A stretch of 54,852 bases of DNA from Chloroflexota bacterium (lineage in GTDB: Bacteria; Chloroflexota; UBA11872; VXOZ01). The notes beneath the pieces were generated by a model. It was not told where the DNA came from and did no database searches. It saw only the letters and a program-made list of their open reading frames with translations. A program made the translations under genes and the position numbers. This document shows, one piece after another, positions 34,801 through 45,899 of this stretch. The stretch is from assembly GCA_028874195.1 (NCBI GenBank), contig JAPPLM010000025.1, positions 1 through 54,852 of the forward strand. Reading direction: 5' to 3'. The first letter of the stretch is position 1. Every line of letters begins with the position of its first letter.

Positions 34801-34860
34801 GCCTCGTTCTCCAGACGATTAGGGTTGGGCAAAGACATACAATGAATGTCTTCCCTCCGT

Positions 34861-34884
34861 GTAGCGCGGGGGCTTGTCCCCCGC
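34861..34884. repeat. Dispersed palindrome, family D (copy 1)
   Basis: GTAGC followed by GCGGGGG-cttgt-CCCCCGC. The exact reverse complement of all 24 bases lies at 40661-40684. Confidence 0.9.
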
Positions 34885-34938
34885 CAACTCAACCCACCTA
34901 TGGTTGCTTGTTCAACAAGTGGAATAACCTCGTGCCAG

Positions 34939-36978: not shown

Positions 36979-37335
36979 CTAACTCTCTTGCGGGAGGCCT
37001 TCCTCGAGTGGATAGCCGTCCTTCTCCCAGCCCACGATGCCGGGACCGAGGTTGTAGAGGTCTTCTAGGCCCATGGCGGCGGCGATTTCGCAGGCGACTT
37101 GGCTGCTTTGCCCCACTTCGCAGACGAAGATGATCTTATCGTCGGCGAGGAATTCCCAGGGTTTCTGCAGAAGCTCCGGAAGTGGCGCCAGGATAGAGTC
37201 CGGTATGTGGGCTTTGGCGAAGTGGTTAGGCATGCGCACGTCAATCACCTGGTATTCACCGCTGTCGATCATCTGCTTGGCTTCTGCACTGTCCACTGTG
37301 CCAAAGGGAATGTCGGCATCTGCTTGCTGCGCCAT
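36979..37335 (-). CDS. Single-domain rhodanese-like protein
   Basis: A 118-residue rhodanese domain. It has the CH2A-like region VIDVRMPNHFAKAHIPDSI near residue 30 and the active loop FVCEVGQSSQVACEIAAAMG with catalytic Cys72, then LYNLGPGIVGWEKDGYPLE at the end. The loop C-E-V-G-Q-S-S fits a sulfurtransferase loop of normal length. Likely role: sulfur carrier or persulfide transfer. GGAGG lies eight bases before the ATG. It is divergent from the SsuABC/NrtABC-type importer operon, and the back-to-back promoters nearly overlap. Confidence 0.92.
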   Translation of the reverse strand: MAQQADADIPFGTVDSAEAKQMIDSGEYQVIDVRMPNHFAKAHIPDSILAPLPELLQKPWEFLADDKIIFVCEVGQSSQVACEIAAAMGLEDLYNLGPGIVGWEKDGYPLEEGLPQES

Positions 37336-37392: not shown

Positions 37393-37421
37393 TTGACACC
37401 GGCTTCGGACTATGCTACTTA
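37393..37421 (+). promoter_or_regulatory. Predicted promoter of the importer/AprAB-like operon
   Basis: A perfect TTGACA and TACTTA are separated by 17 bases. On the other strand GTGTCA and TAGAAT (37399 down to 37371) form a weaker promoter facing the rhodanese gene. Confidence 0.5.
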
Positions 37422-37456
37422 GTTAATATCTTATCTAAATAAAGTTACTTAGTAAA
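37416..37456. promoter_or_regulatory. Possible operator: repeated TACTTAGT(T/A)AA
   Basis: TACTTAGTTAA at 37416-37426 and TACTTAGTAAA at 37446-37456 start 30 bases apart, about three helix turns, on either side of the predicted transcription start in an otherwise AT-rich stretch. Confidence 0.45.
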
Positions 37457-37510
37457 GATTACCCGTCTGGGTAGTAGCGATAATTCTAGCATTAGAGGCG
37501 GGCAGTAGGT

Positions 37511-38326
37511 GTGGCAAGTGTGGTGGAACAAGAGCAGGGTAATGTATCCACAGCAGAGGCGCGGATCGTGTTGGAAAACGCCGCGAAGGTCTTTGCTGCG
37601 CGCAGCGGTGACACGGTTGCGTTCCAAGACGTAAACCTGACGGTGCATGAGGGCGAGTTGCTCTGCGTGCTGGGGCCGAGTGGGTGCGGCAAGTCCACGC
37701 TGCTCAACGTCATCGCGGGGCTGGATGAGCTTTCGCGAGGGAGCGTGGCTGTTGCCGGCGAACCGGTAGCCGGCCCGCATTACACGCGGGGCATGGTGTT
37801 TCAGGACTATGCGCTCTTCCCGTGGCTCACCGTAGAAGAAAACATCCGTTTCGGTCTCGACGCGCGGGGTTTCAAGGGCGACAAGCGCTCAATAGTTGCA
37901 GACCTCGTGGCGCTCACTCGTTTGCAAGGATTCGAACGCGCGCGGCCCGCGCAGCTTTCCGGCGGCATGGCGCAGCGGGTGGCGTTGGCGCGCGCTCTCG
38001 CCAATCAAGTAGAGATTCTGCTGATGGATGAGCCGTTCGGCGCCTTGGATGCTTTCACGCGGATGGAGATGCAAGAGGAGATTGTGCGCATTGTAAAGGC
38101 CCAGGGGGTCACGACCGTCTTTGTGACGCACGACATCGATGAAGCCCTCTTCGTTGGCGACCGCGTGGCAATCATGTCCGCGCATCCCGGCGAATTGCGG
38201 CGGGTCATTCCGGTGCCAATTGCCCATCCGCGCGACCGGGTAGACCCACAACTGGTGCGCTTGCGGGAAGAGGTCTTCACTGAGTTCAATCTGGCGCACA
38301 CCCGCGAGCAGTACTATCACATTTAG
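37511..38326 (+). CDS. ABC importer ATPase, SsuB/TauB/NrtD type
   Basis: A 271-residue ATPase of the nitrate/sulfonate/taurine group. Walker A is GPSGCGKST at 55-63. The group's characteristic Q-loop segment MVFQDYALFPWLTVEENI lies near 95, signature QLSGGMAQRVALARALA near 148, Walker B ILLMDEPFGALDAFTRMEMQ near 169, and switch VFVTHDIDEALFVGDRV after it. It drives a permease homodimer with a cytosol-facing ATPase pair. It is first in a same-strand series ATPase, binding protein, permease, flavoprotein, ferredoxin, hydrolases. GTG start; the ribosome site is weak (AGG). Confidence 0.93.
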   Translation: MASVVEQEQGNVSTAEARIVLENAAKVFAARSGDTVAFQDVNLTVHEGELLCVLGPSGCGKSTLLNVIAGLDELSRGSVAVAGEPVAGPHYTRGMVFQDYALFPWLTVEENIRFGLDARGFKGDKRSIVADLVALTRLQGFERARPAQLSGGMAQRVALARALANQVEILLMDEPFGALDAFTRMEMQEEIVRIVKAQGVTTVFVTHDIDEALFVGDRVAIMSAHPGELRRVIPVPIAHPRDRVDPQLVRLREEVFTEFNLAHTREQYYHI

Positions 38327-38513
38327 GAACCTCTGAATATGCTGTATGTTCCTCAGCCTACTCGAAAGCTCTATCAGGGTGTCGTGAATGAGCTCTGTCG
38401 TGAAACGATGAGTGTGGGCATGCGCCCTACCATTTGTCCCCTTGTGGTCCGATAACTCCACATTCAAGATACCTGCCGACAGAAGTGAAATCGCCACTTT
38501 AGGAGAAGCCAAA

Positions 38514-39752
38514 ATGTCGAAGAAAATTACGCGTTCGCAGTTCCTCGGTACCTTGGGTGCCGTAGCTCTCGGCGCGGTTGCGAGCCCACTGCTTGGCGCT
38601 TGCGGCGGTGACGATGAAGCCGATGCAAACGGGGGGCCGGTTACGCCGTCCAAAGTGTCGGATACCACGGTGAAGGTGGGCTATTTGCCGATTACGGACT
38701 CGACGCCGCTTACGCTTGGGTATGCCGGTGGCTTCTTTGCCGACCAGGGTTTGAACGCGGACAAGCCTGCGCTCTTCCGTGGTTGGTCGCAGCTTGCTGA
38801 GGCGTTCATGGCGGACCAGGTGAATGTGGCGCACTTCCTTATGCCGATGACGGTGTGGATGCGCTATGGCATCGGCTTTCCCGTGAAAGTTGTGGCCTGG
38901 GACCATATCAACGGTTCGGCGTTGACCGTGCATCAGGAAGGCGGCATCGATAGCATCAAGGATCTGGGCGGCAAGCAGATTGCGGTGCCATTCTGGTATT
39001 CGATCCACAACGTTGTCTTACAGATGGCGTTGCGCCATCACAATCTGGAGGCGGTGATCCAAGACCGCAATAAGGAACTCGCGGCCAATCAGGTGAATCT
39101 GTTTGTGATGGCGCCGCCGGATATGCCGACCGCCTTGGGCAACCGATCCATAGACGGCTACATCGTTGCCGAGCCCTTCAATGCCGCCGGCGAGCTACTA
39201 GCGAACGGCAAAATCATCCGCTTCACAGGCGACATCTGGAAAGACCACGCCTGCTGCGTGGCGGTACTGAGTGAGAAGTACATCAACGAGAACCCGGAGT
39301 GGGCGCAGCGCGTGCTCAATAGTATTGCTAATGCCCAACTTGCCGCGCTGAAGGACATTCCCGGCACGGCCAAGCTCCTTTCCAAGGACGGCAGCGGACT
39401 CTTGCCGCAGGCGGCAAACGTCATCGAACGCGCCATGAGCAAGTACGATTTAGAGACCTACGGGCCCCAAGGCACCAACGCCATCCACCATCCGGAGTGG
39501 GGGGCATCGCGGATCGGCTTTCAGCCCTGGCCGTATCCGAGCTATACCATCGAGCTTGTGAACCAGATCAAGCAGACGTTGGTGGAGGGGGATACGAGTT
39601 TCCTGGCCGATCTCTCCGGCGATCACGCCGCGGAGGATTTGGTAGATTATACGTTGGTCAAGGAAGCCTATAACGCCGCCGGCGGCCCGGGCGCTTTTAA
39701 CGTTGCGGAAGAAGAGGCGTTCGAGCGCAAGGAGATCATCGGCATTGAGTGA
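38514..39752 (+). CDS. ABC importer binding protein, NrtA/CmpA/SsuA-like lipoprotein
   Basis: A 412-residue binding protein of the NMT1/ABC-type nitrate-sulfonate-bicarbonate group. The signal peptide (KKITRSQFLGTLGAVALG) is Tat-like with a single Arg, followed by LLGAC lipobox near residue 31. Core features are VKVGYLPITDSTPLTLGYAGGFF, the ALFRGWSQLAEAFMADQVNVAHF segment, LMPMTVWMRYG and YIVAEPFNAAGELL. The ligand is unknown; the fold usually binds small anions such as nitrate, sulfonates or bicarbonate. AGGAG lies eight bases before the ATG. The gene runs into the permease gene. Confidence 0.9.
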   Translation: MSKKITRSQFLGTLGAVALGAVASPLLGACGGDDEADANGGPVTPSKVSDTTVKVGYLPITDSTPLTLGYAGGFFADQGLNADKPALFRGWSQLAEAFMADQVNVAHFLMPMTVWMRYGIGFPVKVVAWDHINGSALTVHQEGGIDSIKDLGGKQIAVPFWYSIHNVVLQMALRHHNLEAVIQDRNKELAANQVNLFVMAPPDMPTALGNRSIDGYIVAEPFNAAGELLANGKIIRFTGDIWKDHACCVAVLSEKYINENPEWAQRVLNSIANAQLAALKDIPGTAKLLSKDGSGLLPQAANVIERAMSKYDLETYGPQGTNAIHHPEWGASRIGFQPWPYPSYTIELVNQIKQTLVEGDTSFLADLSGDHAAEDLVDYTLVKEAYNAAGGPGAFNVAEEEAFERKEIIGIE

Positions 39753-40620
39753 GGCTATGCGCACGGAAGGACGGTTGGCCGAGCAGGTCCGTGATAAAGC
39801 AGATGCTGACACGGAAACGGCACAGTCCGTTGGCGTTCCTGTGGCTAGCCGTTGGTCGGCCCGCCTGCGGAACGCGGGCATACCGGTCATTGGCTTTCTC
39901 GTTATACTCCTCTTTTGGCAACTGCTCACGAGCGGCCTGGTATCGGAATCTACCATCGTCACGGCCTTTCAGCCACGTAATGCATTTCGTGAGCTAATTG
40001 GCTTCTTCGTCAGCGGTGTCATCTATTCCCACATCTTTGCGAGCTTGGAGCGCATCGGGCTGGGACTGGCCCTGGCAGTTGCGATTGGGGTGCCGATTGG
40101 GATCGTCATCGGGCATTACCGCACCGCTGAGCGAGCGTCCTCACTCGCGTTTCAGTTCTTGCGGATGATTTCGCCCCTCTCTTGGATGCCGATTGCCATC
40201 ATCGCCTTTGGCGTGGGCAATAATCCCGTGATTTTCTTGATCGCCATTGCGGCGGTCTGGCCAATGATCATCAATACGGCCCACGGCGTGAGCAGCCTTG
40301 ACCAGCGTTGGATCCGCGCGGCGCGCACCTTGGGCGCCAACGAGTGGAAACTCGTACGTATGGTCATCTTGCCCGCAGTGGTGCCGGACATGCTTACAGG
40401 GCTGCGTTTGGCGGTGGGCCTAGCCTGGGTGGTCTTGGTGCCCGCGGAGATGCTGGGTGTATCCGACGGTCTCGGTTATTACATTCTGGATACGCGTGAT
40501 CGGTTCAACTATGGAGAACTCATGGCCGTCATTCTCATCATCGGGGTCATCGGCTATGCGTTGGACCAACTCATCCGCTTGCTGCGCGTGCACGTCTCCT
40601 GGGACCAAGGAGAGCGCTAA
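39745..40620 (+). CDS. ABC importer permease, SsuC/NrtB/TauC type
   Basis: A permease of about 291 residues with a polar N-terminal tail and six helices. The cytoplasmic coupling segment is RAARTLGANEWKLVRMVILPAVVPDMLTG, a typical EAA-type loop, preceded by ISPLSWMPIAIIAFG and followed by LGVSDGLGYYILDTRDRFN, both usual in this group. TTG at 39745 is supported by AAGGAG ten bases upstream and overlaps the binding protein gene by eight bases; ATG at 39757 is the alternative. It forms the importer with the two preceding gene products. Confidence 0.92.
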   Translation: MSEAMRTEGRLAEQVRDKADADTETAQSVGVPVASRWSARLRNAGIPVIGFLVILLFWQLLTSGLVSESTIVTAFQPRNAFRELIGFFVSGVIYSHIFASLERIGLGLALAVAIGVPIGIVIGHYRTAERASSLAFQFLRMISPLSWMPIAIIAFGVGNNPVIFLIAIAAVWPMIINTAHGVSSLDQRWIRAARTLGANEWKLVRMVILPAVVPDMLTGLRLAVGLAWVVLVPAEMLGVSDGLGYYILDTRDRFNYGELMAVILIIGVIGYALDQLIRLLRVHVSWDQGER

Positions 40621-40660
40621 GTGCCTGGCCTGAGTGGGAGTTCTAGTGATGTGCTGAAGA

Positions 40661-40684
40661 GCGGGGGACAAGCCCCCGCGCTAC
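40661..40684. repeat. Dispersed palindrome, family D (copy 2, inverted)
   Basis: Exact reverse complement of 34861-34884. Confidence 0.9.
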
Positions 40685-40826
40685 CAAAGTACGGTGAGCG
40701 GGGCTGATCCTCCGCTACAGCTAACTGACGCGGCATGCATTGCCTTTGGCAAGCAGGTGGCTGCCAATCCCGGTAGCTTAGCCACGTTACAGGCTAGATT
40801 CGTCAGACAATACAATCTTAGATTAT

Positions 40827-40860
40827 CCCCTCTCCCCGAGGGAGAGGGCTAGGGTGAGGG
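40827..40860. repeat. Dispersed repeat, family F
   Basis: CCCTCTCCC-cga-GGGAGAGGG followed by CTAGGGTGAGGG, a form of a very widespread bacterial intergenic repeat. Its last bases touch the flavoprotein start region and may supply its ribosome site. Confidence 0.8.
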
Positions 40861-40865
40861 TTTCC

Positions 40866-42587
40866 GTGGAAGTTCCGCATGATGTTTACACCACCGACGT
40901 GCTTGTAATCGGCGGCGGGCTGGCCGGCTGCTGGGCGGCGATTGCCGCCACGCGTCAAGACAGCCGGGCGTTAGTAGTAGACAAAGGCTTTGTGGGCGGC
41001 TCCGGCTGCAGTGTCTTTGCGGGTGGGGTAGTGCTTTACCTCACGCCGGAAGACGACCCCGCGGACTTTGTCCGCGAGCACTGCCGCGAGAGTGAACTGC
41101 TCCTTGATCCAGCGTGGGTCGAGTGGCTGGTGCAGGCCAACTATGAGCGCATAGCGGAGTTGGATGGCTGGGGCGCGCCTTTTGACCGCCACGACGACGC
41201 GGCTGATGGCCGGGCCGGCTCTCTGCATCGCCGCTTGATCTACGTCGGTTCGCGCGAGACGGTCTGGCGGCTCGGCCTCGATAGCGTTGAGCTGATGAAA
41301 CTCATGCGCAAGCAGGTCTTGCGCACGAAGCAAGCGAAGCTCCTCGATCACACCACCATCGTCAAACTCCTCGTCGAGGACGGTCGCATCATTGGGGCGG
41401 TGGGCATACGCCGCCAGGACGAACGCCTCTGCCTCATCCAGGCGAAAGCTGTCGTGCTCGCGGCGGGGGGCTGCGCTTGGAAAGGCACGCACTTCGGCCA
41501 CGACATGCTTTGCGGCGAGGCGTACAAGCTCGCGTGGGACGTGGGCGCGTCCCTGATGAACATGGAGTATGCCAACGGGTATATCGCGACCAATACCCGC
41601 TTCGATAGTCACGGCCAGTGCATACTTGCTGCTATTGGCGGCAAGTACCTGAATGGTGAAGGTAAGCCCTTCCTCGGCAAGTACTCGGACAAGGTGCCGC
41701 CGGCCATACACGTGATCGCCCGGGGCATGGCATCCGAAATCCGTGAAGGGCGCGGGCCCATCCAGCTTGATCTCTCCGCCGTCCCCGTCAAAGACCGTGA
41801 AATGTGGCTGCACGCCTTCAAGCATATTGCCGAGCTCGCTCGCCGCAGCGGCCAGGACCTCTTCGCCGATCGTACGCAGTGGCATCCTGGCTTTAATGGT
41901 TCTGTTTCGGGTTCAGCCGGGGTCTACTTTACGGATACGACCATGGCTTCCACCGTACCGGGCCTCTATGTTGCCGGTGACGCGGCAACACGCGGATACG
42001 TGGTGGGAGCATCCAGCGGCATCACCTTTCTCAATCTCGCCTGGGCGAATGGCAGCGGCTATGCGGCGGGCGTGGGGGCGGGCGAGTTTGCACAAAACTC
42101 TGGGCAGGAAGCGCATTCGGGCGCTAAGTGGGAGAGCGAATTGGCAGAAGCGCTGCGACCTATGGAACGCACAGGCGGCCTGCTTCCCGATGTGGCGTAC
42201 GGACAACTGCAAACCCAGGCCATGCCGCCGGAAGTCAACATCTTCCGCGAAGGTGATCGCATGCAGCGTGCCTTGGCGCACGTGCGGACTCTCCAAGAAG
42301 AGGTGGTGCCGAACCTCTTTGCGCCGGACTTCCATGAGTTGGTAAAGTGCTACGAGGTAGAAGCGACTGCTCTCACGACGGAACTGATGTACGAAGCCGC
42401 GCTCTTGCGGACAGAAAGCCGGGGTTGGCACTACCGTGAAGACTTTCCTCAGCGTGACGACAACGGCTGGCTCAAGTGGATTGTGGCAGAGCCCAACGAA
42501 AACAGAGAGCCAAGCTTTCGGTACGTTTCAGTGCCCCGCAAACGACTGGAAGAGCTGGGAATACTCGAATCAGCGGCAGCAGTGTGA
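40866..42587 (+). CDS. AprA/FrdA-superfamily FAD-dependent oxidoreductase
   Basis: A flavoprotein of about 573 residues. The FAD motif is DVLVIGGGLAGCWAA near residue 12, the acidic end is ALVVDKG near 35, the mid-protein FAD segment is VLAAGGCAW, and the closing motif is VPGLYVAGDAATRGYVVGASSGITFLNLAWANG. Where succinate dehydrogenases and fumarate reductases have S-H-(S/T) with FAD-linking His, this protein has GGSGCSVFAGG, so FAD is non-covalent as in AprA. The adjacent AprB-like ferredoxin supports electron transfer through Fe-S clusters. The substrate is unknown. GTG at 40866 or 40854 may start it. Confidence 0.85.
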   Translation: MEVPHDVYTTDVLVIGGGLAGCWAAIAATRQDSRALVVDKGFVGGSGCSVFAGGVVLYLTPEDDPADFVREHCRESELLLDPAWVEWLVQANYERIAELDGWGAPFDRHDDAADGRAGSLHRRLIYVGSRETVWRLGLDSVELMKLMRKQVLRTKQAKLLDHTTIVKLLVEDGRIIGAVGIRRQDERLCLIQAKAVVLAAGGCAWKGTHFGHDMLCGEAYKLAWDVGASLMNMEYANGYIATNTRFDSHGQCILAAIGGKYLNGEGKPFLGKYSDKVPPAIHVIARGMASEIREGRGPIQLDLSAVPVKDREMWLHAFKHIAELARRSGQDLFADRTQWHPGFNGSVSGSAGVYFTDTTMASTVPGLYVAGDAATRGYVVGASSGITFLNLAWANGSGYAAGVGAGEFAQNSGQEAHSGAKWESELAEALRPMERTGGLLPDVAYGQLQTQAMPPEVNIFREGDRMQRALAHVRTLQEEVVPNLFAPDFHELVKCYEVEATALTTELMYEAALLRTESRGWHYREDFPQRDDNGWLKWIVAEPNENREPSFRYVSVPRKRLEELGILESAAAV

Positions 42588-42659
42588 TTTTCTTGCACCT
42601 GACATTTACGGCAGTCGAACCAGAATCTATCCGTTTTATCAACGCGGAGACTCTCACTA

Positions 42660-42896
42660 GTGGCAATTGAGAAAGTATACGAAGACCTGTGCATTGGCTG
42701 TAATCTCTGTGTGAAAGTCTGCCCGCTCGACGTGCTTCGCATGGATGAGAAGAAGAAAGCTTATATCCGATACCAGGACGACTGCCAATCGTGCCTGCTC
42801 TGTGAGATATACTGTCCCACCGATGCGATTTACGTTGGACCGGAGAACCCCCGCGACGTGCCATTCAAGGTTGTGGAATTGGCACAAGTATCCTAA
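42660..42896 (+). CDS. AprB-like ferredoxin with two [4Fe-4S] clusters
   Basis: A 78-residue dicluster ferredoxin. The first ligand set is CIGCNLCVKVCP (Cys11, 14, 17, 21) and the second CQSCLLCEIYCPTDAIYVGP (Cys42, 45, 48, 52), each completing C-x2-C-x2-C-x3-C-P. The short C-terminal tail lacks the long extension of true AprB, so it is related to, not identical with, adenylylsulfate reductase beta. It lies 72 bases after the flavoprotein gene and is probably its electron partner. GTG start with GGAGA about 10 bases upstream. Confidence 0.9.
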   Translation: MAIEKVYEDLCIGCNLCVKVCPLDVLRMDEKKKAYIRYQDDCQSCLLCEIYCPTDAIYVGPENPRDVPFKVVELAQVS

Positions 42897-42947
42897 CGGC
42901 TTGCTAGAAGTTGAGCGACGAGTTTAATTGAGAAAGGGAGAATTCCC

Positions 42948-43979
42948 ATGAGCGATGTGTTTGATTTCGATACGTACATCATGGCGCATTACGAAAAGCA
43001 CCCGCCGCTCATGCACTTTGCCGGCGAGAGCCGGGATGAGTGGTTCGCGTGGCAACAGCGCTTACGCGCCAAGCTACTCGAACTCATGGAGCCGTTTCCT
43101 GAGCAGGTGCCGCTGGAAGCGCGGGTTGTCGAGGAGCGGGAGCAATTCGGCGTGCATTACGAGAAGGTGGTGTATACCACCGCCGAAGACGTACAGGTCC
43201 CGGCGTGGCTGCTCATTCCGGAGAAAGTGACAACGCCAGCACCGGGAATTATTTGTCTACACGGTCACGGGGGACCGTACGGCAAAGATCCCGTGGCACA
43301 CGTGGACCATGGCGAAGAGGAACTCGCGCGGGCGATCAAGAACTACAATTATGACTACGGCCTACAGCTTGCCAAACGCGGCTTTGTGACCCTGTGTCCC
43401 GATGCGCGCGGCTTTGGTGAGCGCAGAGAAGACTTCCGGCGCTATCCCAACCGTGATGGCTGCAACGTTAATGGCATCAAGACGTTTCTTTTTGGCATGA
43501 ACTTGATGGCACTCAACACCTGGGACGATATGCGGGGTCTTGGCTACTTGGCGAGCCGGCCGGAAGTGGACGCGGACCGGCTCGGATGCATCGGCTTGTC
43601 ACTTGGCGGCACGCGCTCGATGTACCTCTCGGCGGTCGACGAGCGCGTAAAAGCGTCTTCTGTGGTGTGTTATCTGACGACCTTCAAACAGTATGCGCTC
43701 ATCCAGGGCAATTTCTGCGGATCGCAATTCGTGCCCGGTGTGCTCAAGTACGCGGAAGTATCGGACCTCTGCGGCTTAATAGCCCCGCGGCCGCTCCTCA
43801 TCGAGGCCGGCATTCAAGACGGAGGCTTTCCGATCGTGGCCGCGCGCGAGGCGTATGCACACTTGGAAACCATCTACGCGGCGGCGCAGGTATCGGAAAG
43901 CCTCTGGCTCGACGAATTCGACGGCGGGCACCAGTTCAGCGGCGCCAAAGCCTTCGACTTCTTCAACACGTATCTATAA
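42948..43979 (+). CDS. Alpha/beta hydrolase, esterase-like (copy 1)
   Basis: A 343-residue alpha/beta hydrolase of the acetyl-xylan-esterase/dienelactone-hydrolase-like group. Catalytic candidates are Ser218 in GLSLGGTRS, Asp291 in EAGIQDGGFP and His328 in FDGGHQFSG; the oxyanion region is ICLHGHGG near 103. The N-terminal 60 residues (HFAGESRDEWFAWQQRLRAKLLELM) are characteristic of this group. There is no signal peptide, so the substrate is cytosolic. It starts 51 bases after the ferredoxin gene, with GGGAG upstream of the ATG, and is followed by a close duplicate. Confidence 0.88.
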   Translation: MSDVFDFDTYIMAHYEKHPPLMHFAGESRDEWFAWQQRLRAKLLELMEPFPEQVPLEARVVEEREQFGVHYEKVVYTTAEDVQVPAWLLIPEKVTTPAPGIICLHGHGGPYGKDPVAHVDHGEEELARAIKNYNYDYGLQLAKRGFVTLCPDARGFGERREDFRRYPNRDGCNVNGIKTFLFGMNLMALNTWDDMRGLGYLASRPEVDADRLGCIGLSLGGTRSMYLSAVDERVKASSVVCYLTTFKQYALIQGNFCGSQFVPGVLKYAEVSDLCGLIAPRPLLIEAGIQDGGFPIVAAREAYAHLETIYAAAQVSESLWLDEFDGGHQFSGAKAFDFFNTYL

Positions 43980-44339
43980 CGCAGAGTCCCTGGGGAGGTG
44001 GCGGAGCTTTTCGCAGGGCACGACGCGGCGCTGGCGAACGAGCCCAAGAATGCTTCCCAACAAGCGTTCTCCCCATGCGGTCTCGCTGCTCATTGAGTCA
44101 ACGGGCATTGCGTCATACCATGAATGGCCAGCCTGTTGTAGCTTGTGCTGTAGGATGGTCCCGCCCACACATAACGATTTGCCGGGTTGCATTAGAGGCT
44201 TTATTGAAGGCTCTTGCATGACGATTTGGCTTGGTAGAGAAGTGCGATTACAATTCGAGGTGAGAATTGGAGCGGTCAGTGGAGGGGTTGAGTAAGCATA
44301 GAGTGAGTAGTCGATGTGTTGAACCAGGAGAGGCACCTC
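43980..44339. other. Intergenic region between the two hydrolase copies
   Basis: No gene, hairpin or clear repeat is seen. The length argues that the second hydrolase may have its own promoter, but none stands out. Confidence 0.5.
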
Positions 44340-45368
44340 ATGAGCGATGTTCTTGATTTCGATTCCTACATCATGGCGTACTACGACAAGCACCCCCCGC
44401 TTATGCACTTTGCCGGCGAGAGCCGGGATGAGTGGTACACGTGGCAGCAGCGTTTGCGCGCCAAGCTTCTGGAACTTATGGAGCCACTTCCCGAACAGGT
44501 GCCGCTGGATGCGCACGTTGTCGAGGAGCGAGAGCAGTTTGGCGTGCACTACGAGAAAGTGGTGTACACAACTGAGGAAAATGTGCAGGTACCGGCATGG
44601 CTCTTGATCCCGGAAAATGCAGCGCAGCCTGCTCCCGGTATCATCTGCTTTCACGGACATGGAGTAGACGGCAAAGATAATGTGGCGAATGTGGACTACG
44701 GCGAGGAAGAAAGAGCAGGCACGATCGAACGCGCCAATTATGACTACGGCCTGCAGCTTGCCAAGCGTGGTTATGTGACCCTGTGCCCAGATGCGCGCGG
44801 CTTTGGTGAGCGCAGAGAAGACTTCAGGCGCTACGGCAAGCGCGACGGCTGCAACGTGAACGGCATCAAGACCCTATTATTCGGGATAAACCTGATGGCG
44901 CTCAACACCTGGGACGACATGCGGGGTCTTGATTACCTGGCAAGTCGGCCGGAGGTGGACGCGGATCGGCTGGGCTGCATCGGCCTCTCGTTTGGCGGCA
45001 CGCGCTCAATGTACCTTGCGGCCGCGGATGAGCGCGTGAAAGCGGCAGACGTGGTGTGCTATCTGACGACATTCAAGCAGTACGCATTGACGCAGGGCAA
45101 TTTCTGCGGATCGCAATTCGTGCCTGGAATTCTCAAGTATGCTGAAGTGGCCGACGTGTGCGGCCTGGTGGCGCCGCGGCCGCTGCTCATCGAGTCCGGT
45201 ATACATGACGGAGGCTTTCCGATTGCGGCGGCGCGTGAGGCGTATGCGCATCTGGAAACCATCTACGCGGCGGCGCAGGTATCGGAAAGCCTCTGGCTCG
45301 ATGAATTCGACGGCGGGCACGAGTTCAGCGGCGCCAAAGCCTTCGACTTCTTTAACGCCTACCTATAA
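44340..45368 (+). CDS. Alpha/beta hydrolase, esterase-like (copy 2)
   Basis: A 342-residue duplicate of the preceding hydrolase, identical over long stretches (for example HFAGESRDEW and YAHLETIYAAAQVSESLW). The nucleophile elbow is GLSFGGTRS, the Asp is in ESGIHDGGFP and the His in FDGGHEFSG, so the triad is intact. Differences concentrate around residues 100-135 (GHGVDGKDNVANVDYGEEE), next to the oxyanion region, which may alter substrate choice. AGGAG lies nine bases before the ATG. Its 3' end overlaps the convergent PRC-barrel gene by 17 bases. Confidence 0.88.
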   Translation: MSDVLDFDSYIMAYYDKHPPLMHFAGESRDEWYTWQQRLRAKLLELMEPLPEQVPLDAHVVEEREQFGVHYEKVVYTTEENVQVPAWLLIPENAAQPAPGIICFHGHGVDGKDNVANVDYGEEERAGTIERANYDYGLQLAKRGYVTLCPDARGFGERREDFRRYGKRDGCNVNGIKTLLFGINLMALNTWDDMRGLDYLASRPEVDADRLGCIGLSFGGTRSMYLAAADERVKAADVVCYLTTFKQYALTQGNFCGSQFVPGILKYAEVADVCGLVAPRPLLIESGIHDGGFPIAAAREAYAHLETIYAAAQVSESLWLDEFDGGHEFSGAKAFDFFNAYL

Positions 45369-45615
45369 GACGTAGGCCGCGCGCGTTGTGGTGCAGCCGG
45401 TCGCGGCGCACAAGCTGGCGCCGGTTCCCCAGTTCAAGAATGCTGGGAGACGCGATTTCGGCGTAGACCGTCTCGTCGGTTTCCGTGTCTACGACAACGG
45501 CGCGCACTTTGCCCACTACGCGGTTGCACCGGTCGTAGACCCGCAACCCGCGCAGGTCTTGAAACTGCGTGTCCGGCTTGTCCGCTAACTCGCGCTCAAG
45601 ACGACGGAGTGGCAT
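45352..45615 (-). CDS. Small PRC-barrel-like domain protein
   Basis: An 87-residue protein whose core, LRGLRVYDRCNRVVGKVRAVVVDTETDETVYAEI, matches the PRC-barrel pattern (LxGxxVxDxxGxxxGxVxdvxvD). ATG at 45615 is supported by GGAAGG six bases upstream. PRC-barrel proteins act in RNA processing, photosynthetic complexes or stress, and stand-alone copies have no assigned role. It converges on, and overlaps by 17 bases, the second hydrolase gene. Confidence 0.72.
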   Translation of the reverse strand: MPLRRLERELADKPDTQFQDLRGLRVYDRCNRVVGKVRAVVVDTETDETVYAEIASPSILELGNRRQLVRRDRLHHNARGLRLIGRR

Positions 45616-45899
45616 ACGGTACCTTCCTTTCTTCTGCTTCTCTTTCTCCTCGTATCCAGTATCTCCGAGGAACATTAGAGCAGCATGAAAGGCAGGTTGC
45701 CGGGAGATTAAGACCGATGGTCAGAGCGGCGGCGCGACCGCGCAGCCGCAGAGTGTGTTTATTGCGATGGTTGGCCGAACGAGCAAGCATTCCAATCTAC
45801 GCCGACACTTTATCGCAGCGGTGCGATCCACTCGCCTGGGAGAAGAGCACCGACTCGCGCATCCCGTGAGGGTCTTCTTAGCGTAGACAAGAGTGCTGC

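Follow-up and report, generated by a model that had tools for sequence, protein, structure and literature searches.

A conserved importer–flavoprotein–ferredoxin unit in Chloroflexota that is distinct from AprA and FrdA

The window analysed here, a stretch of 54,852 nucleotides from a Chloroflexota bacterium (GenBank assembly GCA_028874195.1, contig JAPPLM010000025.1), is the whole of one contig (C14) of a 3.5-Mb genome (G000). Between positions 37511 and 42896 it carries a five-gene unit in which an ATP-binding cassette (ABC) importer is followed by a flavin adenine dinucleotide (FAD) flavoprotein and a ferredoxin. This importer–flavoenzyme–ferredoxin unit is conserved, and its flavoprotein is neither an AprA nor a FrdA. 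The new observation is that relatives of the importer, about half identical to it, always adjoin a flavoenzyme in the loci scored, and we place high confidence in both the unit and the link between flavoenzyme and importer. Searches of the open-licence literature turned up no description of a FAD–ferredoxin–importer unit. The genes of the unit are as follows.

37511..38326, + strand: ATPase of an ABC importer, NrtD/SsuB/TauB type (PF00005, E 1.2e-31)
38514..39752, + strand: substrate-binding lipoprotein, NrtA/SsuA type (PF13379, NMT1_2, 6.9e-41)
39757..40620, + strand: permease of an ABC importer, SsuC/NrtB type, single gene (PF00528, BPD_transp_1, 3.2e-26)
40866..42587, + strand: FAD flavoprotein of the FrdA/SdhA/AprA/NadB superfamily, placed on a separate branch (PF00890, FAD_binding_2, 1.1e-31; PF02910, Succ_DH_flav_C, 2.3e-20)
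42660..42896, + strand: 78-amino-acid 2x[4Fe-4S] ferredoxin (PF00037, Fer4, 1.5e-14, two stretches)

Conservation of the five-gene unit

A preliminary description of the window had read seven consecutive genes as one cassette and one pathway, comprising a complete SsuABC/NrtABC-type importer, an AprAB-like oxidoreductase and two duplicated hydrolases. The seven open reading frames (37511-45368) are indeed all intact and on the + strand, with the order and Pfam domains first stated, and the importer is complete, an NMT1/SsuA-type binding protein, a BPD_transp_1 permease and an ABC_tran ATPase standing together. The likely starts are 38514 for the binding protein, an ATG with AGGAG upstream, 39757 for the permease and 40866 for the flavoprotein, the last chosen by homology within a reading frame that opens at 40854. 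Walker A, LSGG and Walker B motifs are present in the ATPase, and the binding protein has the lipobox LLGAC. Matches to NCBIfam models stay under their cut-offs, the ATPase matching TIGR01184 at 1.4e-68, the binding protein TIGR01728 (SsuA_fam) at 2.7e-28 and the permease, as its top matches, SaoP at 1.9e-50 and NrtB at 8.4e-44.

The order ATPase, binding protein, permease, flavoprotein, ferredoxin is identical in six genomes (G000, G033, G077, G117, G245 and G372). Four of these are among the six genomes of the genus, and in G033, G077 and G117 the block sits between the same flanks as in G000. The other two are from a second family of the class (G245), whose products are, in gene order, 58, 66, 54, 52 and 67% identical to those of the window, and from a distant Chloroflexota family (G372). 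The metagenome-assembled genome Plut_88905 also holds a flavoprotein copy 95% identical to that of the window. Because the block is conserved in other genomes, a chance arrangement of the genes in the window is excluded.

The flavoprotein and its ferredoxin

By sequence, the flavoprotein is placed on an uncharacterised branch of the FrdA/AprA superfamily, apart from AprA, 3'-phosphoadenosine 5'-phosphosulfate (PAPS) reductase, SdhA, FrdA and NadB. A Pfam scan of the protein found no APS-reductase_C domain (PF12139). Its scores fall well short of the AprA models (64 bits for TIGR02061, cut-off 642; 127 bits for NF005331, cut-off 557) and of TfrA (199 bits, cut-off 718), and are also far under the NCBIfam cut-offs for FrdA and SdhA.

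Functional residues were compared in an alignment of 28 sequences. For AprA these were Trp234, Arg265, Arg317 and His398 (A. fulgidus numbering), which we take to be catalytic, and for SdhA the FAD-linking His together with His242, Thr254, Glu255, Arg286, His354 and Arg399 (E. coli numbering), presumably the dicarboxylate set; both sets of roles were checked by alignment only. Trp234, Arg317 and His398 have no counterpart in the window clade, and the position of Arg265 is occupied by Thr in the genus and by Arg in G245. The FAD-linking His and the dicarboxylate set become G, Y, Q, C, I, N and G in the window flavoprotein, and these residues of SdhA, FrdA and NadB are missing across the window clade. 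The genome holds separate SdhA-like (L031) and NadB-like (L032) genes, and the SdhA-like paralogue keeps every SdhA residue. In the same alignment, the PAPS reductase of Methanothermococcus retains the AprA residues, as its paper reports for the catalytic ones (PMC10322725).

Maximum-likelihood trees place the window flavoproteins with FAD–ferredoxin proteins of Paenibacillus, Rhizobiaceae, Paracoccus, Azospirillum and Pseudonocardia, with support of 99/96 in a tree of 61 rows and 100/99 in one of 28 rows. In both trees AprA, PAPS reductase, SdhA, FrdA and NadB are split off by well-supported branches, those dividing SdhA/FrdA from the window flavoprotein being supported at 99/96 and 100/99. 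A tree had been proposed as a check in the preliminary description, and the flavoprotein does not group in it with ordinary fumarate reductases. Residues and tree together rule out an ordinary fumarate reductase or succinate dehydrogenase. The AprAB-like identity first given to the pair is likewise withdrawn: with catalytic residues missing, APS-reductase_C absent, the tree placing the protein elsewhere and sulfate activation lacking in the genus (see below), an adenosine 5'-phosphosulfate (APS) or PAPS reductase is strongly disfavoured and was rejected. Structure predictions reached a predicted local distance difference test (pLDDT) score of 43 for the flavoprotein and 33 for the binding protein because the five-row alignments were too shallow, and these models, being too poor, were neither used nor searched.

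The ferredoxin has two CxxCxxCxxxC motifs with all eight cysteines. Its gene adjoins the flavoprotein gene in each close relative checked and at all loci that fall on the window side in the 61-row tree, the one at L056 having been missed by the motif scan and recovered by blast, the only such case. Of its AprB-like description, the 2x[4Fe-4S] type is confirmed, and its matches are generic for this type: 182 PDB sequences are hit at E<0.01, chiefly PsaC and polyferredoxins but also, in like manner, the beta subunit of PAPS reductase. AprB is not among its top 25 NCBIfam matches.

Sulfur genes were surveyed in the six genus genomes, five of them at least 95% complete, with control genomes positive for all three families sought. 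ATP sulfurylase (PF01747) and siroheme sulfite/nitrite reductase (PF01077, NIR_SIR) are absent from all six, and PAPS_reduct (PF01507: CysH, CysD) is absent from G000, G077, G117 and G213, with weak matches in G033 and G301. The absence of sat and dsr first remarked on thus holds genome-wide in G000, which has no ATP sulfurylase, NIR_SIR or PAPS_reduct. On these findings APS/PAPS reduction is not available to the genus, which removes an AprAB function and constrains any model of desulfonation. The lineage seemingly depends on reduced or organic sulfur.

Importer relatives and exchange of the flavoenzyme partner

Profile matches of the binding protein include 3un6, the NrtC regulatory domain, NrtA (2g29), CmpA (2i48) and a taurine-binding protein (6ssy); the genus retains the WKDH motif of NrtA, which reads WRDH in G245. 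Relatives of the importer occur in 16 of 400 Chloroflexota genomes, and relatives of the binding protein (47-53% identity) are found on plasmids of Marinobacter, Synechococcus elongatus, Roseomonas, Methylocystis, a Rhodobacteraceae strain, Burkholderia and Paraburkholderia. All of the Chloroflexota loci and seven plasmid loci were typed. G287, in which the permease gene runs into the contig end, was left out, leaving 22 scorable loci, including that of the window. A flavoenzyme adjoins the importer in every one (22/22). It is the FAD–ferredoxin pair in six loci, those of the six genomes named above, and an acyl-CoA-dehydrogenase-fold protein in 16. The co-occurrence of importer and pair, proposed at the outset as a check, is seen in six loci; most importer relatives lack the pair but then stand beside another flavoenzyme. 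The acyl-CoA-dehydrogenase type does not occur anywhere in the genomes of the Chloroflexota FAD carriers, nor does the window-type flavoprotein in the Chloroflexota genomes of the other type. Paraburkholderia has both kinds in one island, each with its own importer.

The position of the acyl-CoA-dehydrogenase-fold gene varies. The Chloroflexota and S. elongatus loci have it immediately ahead of the ATPase gene, with an SCO4226-like gene (PF14026) before it; the SCO4226-like gene is lacking in Roseomonas and Burkholderiales. In the loci of Marinobacter, Methylocystis and the Rhodobacteraceae strain, the acyl-CoA-dehydrogenase-fold gene comes after the permease gene and is accompanied by an OsmC gene. 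The SCO4226-like gene goes with both kinds of flavoenzyme, being found beside the FAD–ferredoxin pair in G372 and G245. On the Marinobacter plasmid pMAD49a (L082, 16025-16474), a cyanase gene stands after those for OsmC, the acyl-CoA-dehydrogenase-fold protein and a FAD-oxidoreductase in the vicinity of the related importer, and could indicate a substrate that yields cyanate or thiocyanate.

In the flavoprotein tree, the six FAD loci fall into a single clade (100/99). In a tree of concatenated ATPase, binding protein and permease, G372 joins the acyl-CoA-dehydrogenase loci (100/99), and forcing the importers of the FAD loci into one group costs 19 log-likelihood units (approximately unbiased test, p 0.0044). 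Because the importer and enzyme trees conflict, the flavoenzyme partner appears to have been exchanged, the simplest reading of these sequences being that one importer lineage exchanged one flavoenzyme for another. Such a swap makes sense if both flavoenzymes act on what the importer brings in.

Limits of the unit and neighbouring features

The seven genes are bounded by a divergent rhodanese gene and a small open reading frame (45352-45675, - strand). The features around and between the genes of the unit are as follows.

36979..37335, - strand: single-domain rhodanese, divergent (PF00581, 2.3e-16), a neighbour only
40660..40685, no strand: dispersed palindrome within the 245 bp that precede the flavoprotein gene, with a further copy at 34860-34885
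42948..43979, + strand: alpha/beta hydrolase 1, Abhydrolase_7 (PF12715, 7.3e-20), a neighbour judged to be outside the module
44316..45368, + strand: alpha/beta hydrolase 2, tandem copy (PF12715, 1e-19), a neighbour only

The hydrolases, which contain GxSxG motifs, are duplicates as first described, being two Abhydrolase_7 proteins of 85.7% amino acid identity, and the rhodanese gene does lie divergently to the block, 175 bp upstream of it. In G213, the five genes are missing as a block, and the rhodanese, a hydrolase, the small open reading frame and major facilitator superfamily genes remain in synteny. No hydrolase stands beside the block in G245 or G372, and that of G117 is 7 kb away, past large membrane-protein-like genes. 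The hydrolase is a tandem pair in G000 and G077 and a single copy in G033, G117 and G213. From this pattern it follows that the unit is five genes and not seven, the hydrolases and the rhodanese being mere neighbours; the former were rejected as pathway enzymes and the latter as a member of the unit. Of the single pathway originally proposed, the importer and redox pair are supported as one conserved unit, and the hydrolases are not supported as members. At L048 (1684-8537) and L074 (5452-7797), large probable membrane proteins of about 600-800 amino acids, up to three of them consecutive, stand between hydrolase and module or replace the module; one was tested and had no Pfam match.

Contrary to the preliminary description, the gaps among the seven genes are not all short, that before the flavoprotein gene measuring 245 bp and that between the hydrolases 336 bp. 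The palindrome in the former, GCGGGGGACAAGCCCCCGC, is GC-rich and occurs in intergenic gaps of the genus, once within this operon; its second copy compares with 0 matches in 100 shuffles. Three copies lie in L047, elsewhere in the genus, and the operons of G117 and G245 have no gap of this type before the flavoprotein gene.

Proposed function and alternatives

The best reading, an evenly balanced one in our judgement, is that the five genes form an uptake-plus-redox unit in which an organosulfur-type anion is imported and then undergoes a ferredoxin-coupled flavin step. Outside the cell, the NrtA/SsuA-type lipoprotein would capture a small anion, to be carried inward by the permease and ATPase, each probably a homodimer. 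A cytosolic FAD enzyme would then perform the first redox change of the imported anion, exchanging electrons with its dedicated 2x[4Fe-4S] ferredoxin. Such a ferredoxin-coupled step could run without O2, unlike that of a flavin oxygenase. The substrate may be a sulfonate or sulfinate, and the two flavoenzymes may share one substrate or have closely related ones. A bolder version is put forward only tentatively, namely that one organosulfur-anion importer lineage uses two non-homologous, exchangeable flavoenzymes, of which the FAD–ferredoxin type opens a C–S or similar bond without O2 in bacteria unable to use sulfate or sulfite.

An organic anion, the substrate class suggested in the preliminary description, is a plausible candidate, and the chances that it is an organosulfur compound seem about equal either way. 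On pANL, the S. elongatus relative has genes for cysteine synthase and a chromate transporter nearby, and this plasmid is described as having many sulfur-related genes, some of them sulfur-regulated, srpI being induced on sulfur starvation (PMC8049743). The flavoenzyme of that locus has SfnB as its top NCBIfam match (3.4e-10, far under the cut-off) and a 3-sulfinopropanoyl-CoA desulfinase as its fourth, all such matches being weak. Sister-clade FAD–ferredoxin pairs are found near SfnB, LLM flavin oxidoreductase, TauD, cysD or rhodanese genes. NrtT of Xanthomonas, from a different operon (tauDnrtTCDB), supports the view that NrtA-like proteins can bind sulfonates (PMC5623697).

Several points weigh against this reading. 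The binding protein is equally close to NrtA/CmpA and to sulfonate binders, and more distant Chloroflexota relatives of the flavoprotein adjoin UbiD, molybdenum hydroxylase and CoA-ligase genes, neighbours that suggest carboxylates. Sulfite, as a product, is not assimilable by the usual route in a genus without sulfite reductase. The partner exchange depends on a single long-branched genome, G372, and Pfam barely recognises the acyl-CoA-dehydrogenase partners. The open-licence papers searched contained no experiment on any member of the unit.

The strongest alternative, possible though the less probable, keeps the same five-gene unit but has it import a sulfur-free carboxylate (aromatic, heterocyclic or branched), the flavoprotein being a ferredoxin-linked dehydrogenase or reductase of the acid or a derivative. 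Characterised members of the superfamily act mostly on carboxylates, and the distant Chloroflexota relatives lie by genes for UbiD decarboxylases, molybdenum hydroxylase, CoA ligase and hydantoinase B, and NMT1-type binding proteins accompany several of them. However, the flavoprotein lacks the carboxylate-binding His/Thr/Glu/Arg set of SdhA/FrdA, the UbiD-side relatives fall outside the clade of the window and importer-linked pairs, and closer relatives are in sulfur-scavenging neighbourhoods. In other Chloroflexota (L050-L057), several distant FAD–ferredoxin copies per genome are found by UbiD decarboxylases, molybdenum hydroxylase, CoA ligases and NMT1-type binding proteins, and may represent a branch of this enzyme family that handles aromatic acids.

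That the unit imports and handles a nitrogenous or one-carbon anion (nitrate, nitrite, cyanate, a nitro compound or bicarbonate) is unlikely. The binding protein has the N-terminal signature and WKDH of NrtA, CmpA is among its matches and a cyanase gene lies near the Marinobacter relative, but the WKDH lysine is arginine in G245, the genus lacks siroheme nitrite/sulfite reductase and nitrogen-assimilation genes do not recur beside the importer in the loci examined. Less probable still is an AprAB function, in which the pair would reduce activated sulfate (APS/PAPS) or pass electrons to sulfite-level sulfur: the architecture is that of AprAB, an assimilatory enzyme of this type is known (PMC10322725) and that Methanothermococcus PAPS reductase is among the PDB matches, yet Trp234, Arg317 and His398 have no counterparts, Arg265 is not kept in the genus, the trees place the flavoprotein elsewhere, and neither ATP sulfurylase nor sulfite reductase occurs in six genus genomes, nor PAPS_reduct in four. 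Independence of importer and flavoenzymes, adjacent by chance, is equally improbable, since although the flavoprotein–ferredoxin pair also stands beside other importers, all 22 scorable loci have a flavoenzyme neighbour and the five-gene order is kept across distant families.

Relation to known systems and significance

The closest counterpart is the SCO4226-like (DUF4242)–acyl-CoA-dehydrogenase-fold–ABC–binding protein–permease unit of S. elongatus pANL (38849-43308), which has an importer about half identical and in the same ATPase–binding protein–permease order. Its SCO4226-like gene is shared with G372 and G245 and has no equivalent beside the window unit, and its flavoenzyme has the acyl-CoA-dehydrogenase fold without a ferredoxin, in contrast to the FAD protein plus ferredoxin of the window. 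SfnB, an acyl-CoA-dehydrogenase-like oxidoreductase of sulfur acquisition and the top named, weak match of that alternative partner, has no homology to the window flavoprotein. The unit shares with SsuABC, TauABC and NrtABC an NMT1-type binding protein, one permease and one ATPase, but its importer is under every equivalog cut-off and it contains no SsuD- or TauD-type oxygenase. The importer is similarly under the cut-offs of the Sao system (SaoA/SaoP/SaoX), with 227/360, 172/295 and 56/300 bits for NF040729, NF040733 and NF040735. With AprBA and the Methanothermococcus PAPS reductase the unit has in common a FAD protein of the same superfamily with a 2x[4Fe-4S] partner; it differs in lacking their catalytic residues, in its separate branch and in a genome without sulfate activation.

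The FAD–ferredoxin pairs of Paenibacillus, Rhizobiaceae, Paracoccus, Azospirillum and Pseudonocardia, from three other phyla, form a sister clade with an adjacent ferredoxin and a nearby SsuABC-type importer, but are about 30-35% identical, have other importer subtypes and often lie in sulfur-scavenging islands. In Paenibacillus (L035, L037, L064), two differing pairs stand in tandem behind one SsuABC-type importer. On an Azospirillum brasilense plasmid (L066, 17735-19461), about 7 kb separate a gene for an encapsulin-cargo cysteine desulfurase from a FAD–ferredoxin–importer unit, a further link to sulfur.

The enzyme of the unit fits no characterised branch of a very well-studied superfamily. 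Partner exchange makes its function testable, as the ligand of the binding protein and the substrate of two unrelated enzymes should agree. The unit may explain how sulfur is acquired in a Chloroflexota lineage without sulfate or sulfite reduction.

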